38,799 nucleotides of DNA from Spirogloea muscicola (taxonomy: Eukaryota > Streptophyta > Zygnematophyceae > Spirogloeales > Spirogloeaceae): assembly GCA_009602725.1 (NCBI GenBank), contig WELB01000179.1:206309-245107 (forward strand). The letters run 5' to 3'. The notes under the pieces were generated by a model. The model made no database searches. It saw only the letters and a program-made list of their open reading frames with translations, and was not told the DNA's origin. Position 1 is the first letter of the stretch. Each line of letters opens with the position of its first letter. A program made the translations under genes and the position numbers. Positions 34,654 through 37,600 of this stretch are shown piece after piece.

Positions 34654-37600
34654 CTAGTGAGCAGCCTCCATGTTTGCAACCTCTTCCCGGATTCTGCGCT
34701 CCAGGACATCCTTGACCTCTTGCAATATCTCCGCGGCCTTGCTTGTGTCCATCGTTTCAACATCAAGCTTGTCGTCAAGGGCAGCCTGTAATGTGAGCTC
34801 AAAACCGCCAGTGCCATCGAGCACTTCCTGCACAGCACAGGTAATGTAAAAGCGTCTGTATTTAATAAGAGCAGCTGGACTGTGGACATCAACAAGATCC
34901 AGAGGAGCCAACATAGAAGCGGGACACGCTCTCAAAGTCGGGTGCCAATCATCATGAGGCATCTCTGGACTTTCGAGCTGACCTCGATGACGTGCCTCAG
35001 GGCCTTCTGGCTCCTTGTGACATTAAGAGGCCATTCACACCACCTCCGAGAGGACTTCTGCAGATACAGGCCCAGGTTGCGCGTAGGACTGAACCAGCAT
35101 GGTGGGACGCGCTTCTCAGCGACCAGAACGTCGTCAGTCTTGTTCATGAGAGCATGGTCTCTCGTGGGGTCCATCATCCGCAGATATACCTACACAAGCA
35201 CCACGCATTGGCTGACTCATGCATAGGCAAATAACGGCTACTTAGGTGGATATGGAATATGCAGTGGTAACATCACTAGGGATACAAGCAAAGGGACACA
35301 AACAAAGGGGTGAACCTCCAGATTGTGACGGCCTCCAACAGAAGCCCATGGCACTTTCCCAATGAAGGGGGCGGGCGAGCTCCTCCGATACTCCTTCATC
35401 TTATACGCGTTGCGCAGGACTTCATAGCCACCATGCGTGAACCTGTCGCGAAGGAGCCAGAGGAGCTAGTACTCATTCAGCAGGGCATGTAATTGCCATG
35501 ACATTTGTGACGTTCTTTCCGTTCTCCCTAGGATCATGGCCGCAGGTTTTGCAAGCGCAAGCAGCATGCACAAGACAAGGAGGGGAAGTGCAGGTTGCAC
35601 GGATCGGTAGAGGAGGGGGCCAACCAGCGGCCCGAGGCAAGGCCCAGGGGCACTTTTGGGACAAGGTCATGAATGTTCCGCACGCGCAGCATCCGGGCAC
35701 CTTCCACAGCTTCCTGCCACAGGGAACTGGAGAAATGAGCAAGAAGACTTCACTGCAGACAGCCTCGAGTGGAAGATGTGGAACCGCACTTACTTCTGTG
35801 GTTGGCGCCTCTTTCTGCTCCTCCGTGTGCTTGCCAAAGCGGGCCAACGTTCGGGCTACAATTGGACCGAAGAGCCACGTAGCCCCGGCAACGAGCACGA
35901 TCTGACATGCAACGAGAGGAGGAGAGCAGTGCACGTTAAAGGCTGCAGTCGCTTGCTGGTTCGCAGCATGTGCTGTTGAGAACTCAGCATGGTGGCGCTA
36001 GCAATAGGATTTGTTCCGAACCGGCTGTCCAGACTGGAGGAAGATGCCGCCTGCCAGTCCTGTAGTTGCGATCCAGAAGAGGTTGTCATACAGGCCAGGG
36101 CCCACAGCCAAGGCAACTGAGCCGAGCGCAAAAGGAAGAGTGTCAAGGAGTGTAAAGTAGTTGATGGCGTGCAGGCCCTCAGGCCCCCAGGCAAACGGAG
36201 GCGCCATAAGAGTCTGTGGCCCAAAGCGCTGGGCAAAGAGGCGATCGCCGACGAGGGGTGCTGCGAAGGTCACGGCTGTCACTGTGGGCAGCTCATAGCC
36301 AGCCTTCTGGCCATCCACAAGCTTCTCAATGAAGTCCTGTCTGCACTCCTCGGTCTGTCTGTAGATTGCATCCTTCATCTCGTCTCGGTCGGTGGACTTT
36401 TCCTCGAACTTTTTCCAGTCCTGCGCGTGCTTGTCACCACAAGGTTGGTGTCATACTTCCTCTACTTGCAATTGAACAATTGACCAAAAAACCATCACCC
36501 TTCAGTTAACCCCTAGCTCCCTTGCCAAAGAGGGGTGGGAACATGTGGCACCAAGCCTGTGTCGTGCTTGTGGTGCTGGGTGTCTTGAGCACCTGCTTGT
36601 CCAGCTGCAGCTTGGCAATCTTCTTGGCTTCCCGGAGAGTCTCGGCGATGTCAAAGGCACTCAGCGAAGCCAGCGCTCCTCCAAGGCTGTGGCCTGTTGT
36701 GGTGATACTACTCACACGCCCACCACTCTGCGAGCATACAGATTACTCAAGTCAACTCCCATCCAAGTGGGGGGAACATAATACTCATCTTGCTGCCTCC
36801 TCACTGCCAAGCACCATGAGCAGTTTCCCCACAGCTTGGGCGTGCATACCTTCTCTACGCTGTCCAGGATCTTGTACAGCTCCTTGTAGACCTGTTGGCG
36901 AGGTGATCCAAGAGGAGGTGCATCCCCTTCGCTGGAGCTCGGCGAAGCAAGCTTGTCCTTGCGTGCATCGCAGTACATCTCCTTGAAGCCGAACGAGACA
37001 CGAGGGTCGTCGGAATTCATTCTACTTCGCCATGTGCCCTCCAGCCAGAACATGAACCACTGGAATGCTGCTATTGGGACCTTGCCCGCTTCAGTAACCC
37101 ACTGAATGGGCCCCAGCGACAGCATGCCGGAGATTGCGCTGGCCGTGATACCTAGAGGTAGTGCCAACTTCCAGGCAGCTGCTACCGAAGGCAGCAGCGG
37201 CATATCTTGCAGGACGGCAGTGCTGAGGATGTATGCGATGCCGGCAAAGGCTCCCACGCTGAGGCCGACATTGATGCCAAGCACCTTGAACGGATTTGAA
37301 GGCAAGGTCTGTGTTGGGAGTGGAGCAATGCCCTGCCCGTTGTTCCAGCTCACCATCAATGCCTTGATGTCCTGCCCAGATTGTCATGATGTACAAGGAC
37401 AAAGTCACCAATGTCAGCTTTGATGAGCGGATGACTGGTTCATACCGCACAATATGACATCAACAAGAGAGCATGCGAAGGTTGAGCAGGGACCTGAAGC
37501 CACTCGCCCTTGGTGATCGTGCCTCTCCATACAACCGCAGCATCCACCTCCTTGCTATCCGCAGGGTCGCTGTGAGCGACAAAACCCACAAAGTTCTTGA

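Follow-up and report, generated by a model that had tools for sequence, protein, structure and literature searches.

Hydrophobic inserts within the hydrolase core of a PLA1-type lipase gene of Spirogloea muscicola

Can a class-3 lipase carry membrane-like segments inside its hydrolase fold, and what might they do there? The question is raised by a gene that we call paralogue B, found on the minus strand of a 38,799-nucleotide stretch of DNA from the alga Spirogloea muscicola (GenBank assembly GCA_009602725.1, contig WELB01000179.1). This stretch, hereafter the window, is C179:206309-245107 in our contig numbering, and the gene occupies about 38.7-34.65 kb of it. The original prediction, made from the letters of the window, was of a lipase threaded through a membrane by insertions within the fold. 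From homology, and from the way in which the gene has diverged between its copies, we conclude that the inserts are real coding sequence inside the hydrolase core.

The source genome, a 153-Mb assembly of 471 contigs with intron-rich genes, was searched for further copies. We traced B exon by exon on contigs C179, C13, C366, C45 and C4, that is, five copies from one genome, with C45 and C4 carrying a second lipase locus. The exon borders follow GT-AG in all five copies, exon 4 is 522 nucleotides long in each, and from the second exon onward the protein has a length of 752 to 765 residues, uninterrupted by stops in any of them. The gene model is built on homology and splice rules. Residues are numbered from exon E2 (residue 1), and the predicted exons of the window copy are as follows.

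38604..38675, minus strand: 3' remainder of the first exon, with the transit-peptide-like end GLQRRARPAAPRAALLTRAPATHQ followed by gt; the 5' part falls into an assembly gap past the window
38336..38521, minus strand: exon E2, residues 1-62
37867..38046, minus strand: exon ex1, PLA1-type N-terminal block (VLRDEVIKYGEFAQTTYDAL)
37494..37661, minus strand: exon ex2, with WRGT and the start of the lid helix
36850..37371, minus strand: exon 4, residues 179-352, with the end of the lid helix, insert 1, the DDPRVSFGF block and the helix preceding the nucleophile strand
36593..36727, minus strand: exon ex5, GHSLGG nucleophile elbow with Ser366 at 36686-36688 (Pfam Lipase_3)
36022..36420, minus strand: exon 6, with most of the charged insert 3, the core strand VTAVTFAAP and the first part of insert 2 with segments H4 and H5
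35794..35901, minus strand: exon 7, entirely insert 2 (H6 and a charged linker), 108 nucleotides, phase 0 at both ends
35625..35713, minus strand: exon ex8, Asp582 (HDLVPKVP) at 35666-35668
35316..35442, minus strand: exon ex9, His635 (GGRHNLE) at 35325-35327, a motif resembling DVGPRHNLE of the algal lipase ckGL
34983..35189, minus strand: exon ex10, PLA1-type C-terminal block (RDHALMNKTDDVL...VPPCWFSP)
34654..34827, minus strand: last exon ex11, with the stop codon

Exon 7, being all insert and of phase 0/0, could be skipped in frame, which would take out H6. In C45 the intron that separates exons 6 and 7 is free of in-frame stops, and its retention would leave the frame open.

What kind of lipase is this? 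The spliced protein matches Pfam family PF01764 (Lipase_3) with 59.7 bits against a cut-off of 22 (E 3.9e-16), and this is the only Pfam family found in it. Its catalytic residues, translated from the window, come in the order Ser366 (in GxSxG), Asp582 and His635, so that all three motifs are kept, as had been proposed. The best matches in the PDB are the PLA1 chains 7x0d, 2yij and 7x0c (whole-sequence E 1.8e-13 to 2.2e-11), followed in fourth place by a ribosomal protein (E 0.53). B and 7x0d also have in common PLA1-type N-terminal (67-186) and C-terminal (573-683) blocks that lie outside the Lipase_3 domain. By these homologies B is a class-3 lipase of the plant PLA1 type, and the gene looks plant and green-algal in character. 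A search of NCBIfam returned four families, all far under their cut-offs, and none was used as evidence; they include an effector-family name on a generic lipase stretch (23.8 of 400 bits) and MscL on residues 514-573 (16.7 of 197 bits).

B aligns with 7x0d in four ordered blocks (67-186/29-154, 336-380/195-236, 437-464/245-271 and 573-683/277-384), and the leftovers between them differ greatly in size: 149 residues in B against 40 (insert 1), 56 against 8 (insert 3) and 108 against 5 (insert 2). Relative to 7x0d and 2yij the excess is about 109-113 residues for insert 1, 47-48 for insert 3, which is charged, and about 103 for insert 2, which is hydrophobic, spans exons 6-7 and precedes the strand of the catalytic Asp. 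Insert 1 comes after EWLQDIKALMVS, a stretch that pairs with EWVNDLQFLLVP in the 7x0d alignment. Between the end of WRGT (residue 170) and the start of DDPRV (residue 299) there are 128 residues, which bears out the roughly 120 expected after the WRGT block; the charged third insert is an addition to that earlier picture. The solved members of the family can be read as having a compact PLA1 core without large inserts, and B departs from this. The positions not given by whole exons are:

37006..37338, minus strand: insert 1, residues 190-300, hydrophobic, after the lid helix, in exon 4
36301-36420, minus strand: part of insert 3 in exon 6, residues 398-437

Are these inserts translated, or are they introns that the model has failed to remove? 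Between the C179 and C45 copies of B the introns have 27 insertions or deletions (indels) in 1529 aligned nucleotides, 23 of them not multiples of three. The exons have three internal indels of 6 nucleotides each and exon 4 has none, although the C45 reading frame ends 18 nucleotides sooner. The intron rate predicts about five indels for the 294 nucleotides of exon 4 that encode its hydrophobic part, and zero are observed. A more distant comparison is offered by paralogue A, a tandem copy that holds the same inserts. Insert 1 is 68.4% identical between B and A (indels of 3, 3 and 3 nucleotides), the exon 6 part of insert 2 is 69.4% (9 and 3), exon 7 is 70.4% (none) and insert 3 is 65.8% (3 and 9), while the five introns compared are 43-50% identical. 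Because the frame is kept and divergence is below that of the introns, the inserts must be older than the split of A and B and were translated for much of the time since. Given the kept frame, the triplet indels and this lesser divergence, we reject an unspliced intron as the full account.

A partial version of this idea, compatible with membrane hairpins, deserves separate attention. The hydrophobic part of exon 4 (294 nucleotides, from ATG|GTGAGC to TTCCAG|TGG) could be an in-frame exonic intron, giving a choice between a membrane-bound isoform and one with an ordinary lid. An internal donor does stand where the PLA1 homology ends, as ATG|GTGAGC in all five B copies and as GTAAGC in all three copies of A. 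It scores 7 of 9 against the donor consensus, a value reached by 3 of the 98 exonic GTs of the window copy (itself included) and never exceeded by that copy's ten true donors, of which two tie, although one true donor of the C13 copy reaches 8. Moreover, 294 is divisible by three, and removal would shorten the distance from WRGT to DDPRV to about 30 residues. That said, the donor and acceptor were picked as a pair after inspection, eleven conserved in-frame GTR..AG pairs span the first two hydrophobic segments of exon 4, and the acceptor is CAA rather than CAG in C179A and C366A, both of the A copies (of three in all) that were compared at this site. The absence of indels among the five B copies, and the triplet-only indels against A, mean that the stretch is translated at least in part. 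We therefore regard such a switch as quite improbable. Splicing-out of this part had been named as what would undo the original prediction; of that concern the consensus-like donor stands, while the coding-like frame and the altered acceptor speak against it.

The hydrophobic character of the inserts was assessed by predicted energies of membrane insertion (dG, in kcal/mol). Sequences of bacteriorhodopsin and of a fungal lipase served for comparison, and the same window lengths were applied to all.

37210..37284, minus strand: H1, residues 208-232, predicted dG 0.38
37114..37185, minus strand: H2, residues 241-264, predicted dG 1.38
37018..37080, minus strand: H3, aromatic and amphipathic, residues 276-296, predicted dG 3.15, highest moment 0.37 over 268-285
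36100..36159, minus strand: H4, residues 485-504 (scan optimum 485-508), predicted dG 1.95
36028..36093, minus strand: H5, residues 507-528 (scan optimum 510-528), predicted dG 2.27
35836..35901, minus strand: H6, residues 531-552, predicted dG 0.88

The two hydrophobic stretches foreseen in exon 4 are thus H1 and H2 (37284-37210 and 37185-37114), the aromatic amphipathic stretch falls within 37080-37018, and those foreseen in exons 6 and 7 are found in insert 2 among H4-H6, of which H4 (36159-36100) is new. In the window copy all five segments below 3 kcal/mol (0.38 to 2.27) lie within inserts 1 and 2, which make up 217 of the 764 residues and whose limits were set by homology, independently of hydrophobicity. 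The same holds for all five or six such segments in each of the other four copies; C45, for example, has six, from -0.04 to 2.58. Next above 3 kcal/mol in the window copy are H3 and one core segment at 3.16. Under the same settings the helices of bacteriorhodopsin score -2.80 to 1.70. An equal number of segments at or below 2.3 kcal/mol arose in 1 of 100 shuffles of the whole protein. The number and place of the segments exceed chance; a single stretch is unremarkable. By Kyte-Doolittle hydropathy, too, B has three runs above 1.6, of which two overlap, and shuffled proteins, with 0.66 such runs on average, can have as many as 4.

Replacements among the copies add a further line of evidence. 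The five B copies differ by 28 distinct replacements at non-polar sites of H1-H6; of these, 6.6 would be expected to introduce D, E, K, R, N, Q or H, and none does. By zone, this lack of polar replacements has P values of 0.030, 0.219 and 0.073, and the other four zones tested show no such lack. H1, H2, H4 and H5 combine high mean hydrophobicity with a low helical moment, while amphipathic character is seen in H3 and at the end of H6. The loop charges are small and the orientation is not clear from them.

At its far end the gene offers a hint of where the protein may go. In C45 the first exon is uninterrupted and starts MAAPAALSTSFASAALQL; the presequence begins with ATG, is rich in Ala, Arg, Ser and Pro, and is in keeping with a plastid transit peptide. 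The proposed join of this first exon to exon E2 follows from a GT-AG pair. In the window a poly(A) run at 38679-38799 abuts an N gap starting at the window end, the same is seen in C366, and C4 has a short A run at the position of the C45 presequence exon. We suspect an assembly artefact here, at sequence that is very rich in GC.

Taken together, these observations lead us to propose that B, encoded in the nucleus and probably targeted to the plastid, is an sn-1 acyl hydrolase of the PLA1/DAD1 and ckGL kind, in which two loops form hydrophobic hairpins in or on a plastid membrane. We hold this tentatively, at chances just short of even. The position of the lid helix in class-3 lipases is known from fungal lipases, and insert 1 follows the helix found there. 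The core loop directly after this helix, and the loop before the Asp strand, would have become hydrophobic helical hairpins lying in or on the thylakoid or envelope membrane. Such anchoring might keep the active site where its substrate is, a galactolipid or phosphatidylglycerol, and the lid could be held or moved by the membrane rather than opening on contact only. Since the core has to fold on a single side of the membrane, the number of crossings by each insert would have to be even, unless the insert is monotopic; H1-H2 would fit a hairpin, and H4-H5-H6 would require one of the three to be non-spanning. Membrane embedding, topology and the effect on the lid are our inferences, and the substrate (a galactolipid or phosphatidylglycerol, cut at sn-1) is suggested by analogy with ckGL and with the PLIP1- and PGD1-type lipases as described in the literature (PMC9892843).

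Several observations weigh against hairpins in a membrane. The most serious is a control with lipase cores. Eight Lipase_3 stretches from other genes of the genome, by score four pairs of near-identical copies, have core segments with GxSxG that score 0.71, 0.71, 2.22, 2.22, 2.66, 2.66, 1.57 and 1.57 kcal/mol, and the core segment of a soluble fungal lipase scores 2.16. Because ordinary lipase cores score 0.71-2.66, energy alone cannot tell membrane from buried core, and the membrane reading is weakened by this. A best segment as favourable as H1 also arose in 28 of the 100 shuffles; with shuffles and ordinary lipase cores matching it, we reject a single hydrophobic peak or energy as proof of membrane spanning. 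Between A and B, polar replacements in the hydrophobic zones number 4/23, 2/10 and 2/17 (8/50 for exons 4 and 6), and here the lack is not significant. The inserts diverge faster than the outer core, the H1-H2 ratio of nonsynonymous to synonymous rates (dN/dS) reaches 0.78 for C179B against C366B, and the changes in insert 1 against C45 are almost even over the codon positions (15/10/15). AlphaFold2, run on exon 4 alone for two sequences, gave helices only, at an unreliable mean predicted confidence (pLDDT) of 46.8. The four alignment blocks in 7x0d have independent E-values of 5e-06, 0.094, 860 and 32, and because only the first is significant alone, inserts 2 and 3 are delimited by the order of the blocks and by the triad motifs. 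Finally, in the canonical fold the loop before the Asp strand faces away from the active site, and placing both hairpins on one membrane would need long linkers or a tilted pose, which is the weakest step of the proposal. Of the original prediction, then, the coding hydrophobic inserts inside the core stand, and the crossing of a bilayer stays a conjecture, its predicted energies being marginal and overlapping those of ordinary lipase cores.

This overlap in energy favours a soluble alternative, in which the inserts form a hydrophobic cap, the helices of inserts 1 and 2 packing on one another and on the core. Contact with the membrane would then be only transient, as in an ordinary interfacial lipase. 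Double caps and hydrophobic two-helix lids have been described for DUF6051, hormone-sensitive lipase, juvenile hormone epoxide hydrolase and DUF829 (PMC11878206), and ckGL is rated soluble by TMHMM and SOSUI according to its published description (PMC5794828). However, a cap sits less well with the confinement of the segments below 3 kcal/mol to the inserts in all five copies, and with the absence of polar replacements in H1-H6 among the B copies. The helices of a cap that packs on a core are usually amphipathic, which also counts against it, given the low moments of H1, H2, H4 and H5. We consider a cap a serious and close rival, somewhat less likely than the membrane hairpins.

Might the inserts instead be low-constraint loops, tolerated in a fading enzyme and without any membrane function? 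Between the loci dN/dS is 0.42-0.62 for insert 1, 0.37-0.49 for insert 2 and 0.57-0.91 for insert 3, higher than in the first (0.16-0.20) and last (0.11-0.13) parts of the core, with residues 301-390 at 0.30-0.40; and tandem paralogue A looks to be decaying. But the hydrophobic pairs and triplets are themselves below one, at 0.23-0.35 for H1-H2 and 0.32-0.43 for H4-H6, although H3 alone exceeds one in three of four pairs, on 7 to 9 changes. The frame is kept in five copies, and the inserts remain in frame against A. On balance we find this explanation improbable.

The tandem copy itself lies on the same strand as B:

27899..31234, minus strand: paralogue A, which carries the same inserts and looks decayed; its exon 5 is frame-shifted near 29.9 kb

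All three copies of A (on C179, C13 and C366) have frame breaks or stops, at different places in each, so A looks like a decaying duplicate unless the breaks are sequencing errors. Elsewhere in the window, positions 2000-6000 recur on C140 and C13, and 22000-27000 on C366 and C13, at 89-94% DNA identity (one piece at 82%); for 2000-6000 three further, more divergent copies exist on C139, C55 and C40. This suggests three haplotypes, as in a triploid-like assembly with an older duplication.

Where else might such inserts occur, and do close relatives lack them? Searches of the same genome with the N- and C-terminal blocks for insert-free close relatives gave, among the best candidates scored, places on the five A/B contigs only (23 and 25). 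For relatives of exon 4, 37 pattern stretches in viral contigs and 49 in prokaryote genomes yielded none that was confirmed. Profile searches of the PDB gave three matches for exon 4 (E 0.58, 1 and 1.9), nothing usable, and zero up to E 10 for exon 6. In the open-licence literature searched, as far as its available text goes, membrane segments inside a class-3 lipase core are undescribed; eukaryotic proteomes were outside this search, so the insert may exist unremarked in other algae.

If the hairpins were in a membrane, lid opening and membrane binding would be one event, which bears on the question of interfacial activation as well as on galactolipid turnover in algal plastids. A fuller form of the idea is a chloroplast galactolipase whose lid is a membrane-inserted hairpin, with a second hairpin in another core loop, anchored via its fold rather than by a terminal domain, with interfacial activation built in and possibly switchable by splicing. 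We think it unlikely that this holds in full. The five natural copies of B are ready variants for tests.

How does B compare with lipases that are already known? In diacylglycerol lipases the membrane part is a separate N-terminal domain. B has no such transmembrane domain before its catalytic domain: in scans from exon E2 onward, no segment of 3 kcal/mol or less precedes residue 203 in any of the five copies. The class-3 lipases of the green alga Chlorella vulgaris that are predicted to be membrane-bound belong to the same family as B, but the published account gives them an N-terminal membrane domain, and its Lip_3448, which is similar to chloroplastic PLA1, has no predicted membrane helix there (PMC7910983).

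The closest characterised relative that we found in print is ckGL (glp1), a digalactosyldiacylglycerol (DGDG) galactolipase of Chlorella kessleri, compared here by its published description rather than by alignment (PMC5794828). According to that description ckGL has 535 residues, a predicted chloroplast transit peptide and the triad Ser296, Asp372 and His465; it hydrolyses galactolipids at sn-1 and is unstable without Triton X-100. Like B it is a class-3 lipase related to plant PLA1-I/II, with a presequence, the Ser-Asp-His order and GT-AG exon borders (11 exons in ckGL), and its PRHNLE is matched by GGRHNLE at the catalytic His of B. Its triad spacing, unlike that of B, is ordinary, and it is rated soluble. 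From Ser to Asp there are 76 residues in ckGL, 66 in Arabidopsis PLA1-IIgamma (the 2yij structure) and 216 in B, and from Asp to His 93 in ckGL and 53 in B (PMC5794828 for the published values).

The solved PLA1 chains 7x0d, 2yij and 7x0c agree with B in the four homologous blocks, the position of the lid helix, the triad order and the C-terminal block, and where B has its three inserts they lack about 109-113, 47-48 and 103 residues. Well-characterised plant lipases with the same insert had also been named as what would undo the original prediction; none of the relatives compared, 7x0d, 2yij, 7x0c and ckGL, has it. The nearest parallel in architecture is found in the double-cap alpha/beta hydrolases, which, as far as their published description goes (PMC11878206), resemble B in having large insertions at two places in the core; in B the second insert is at another connection, and both inserts are hydrophobic.

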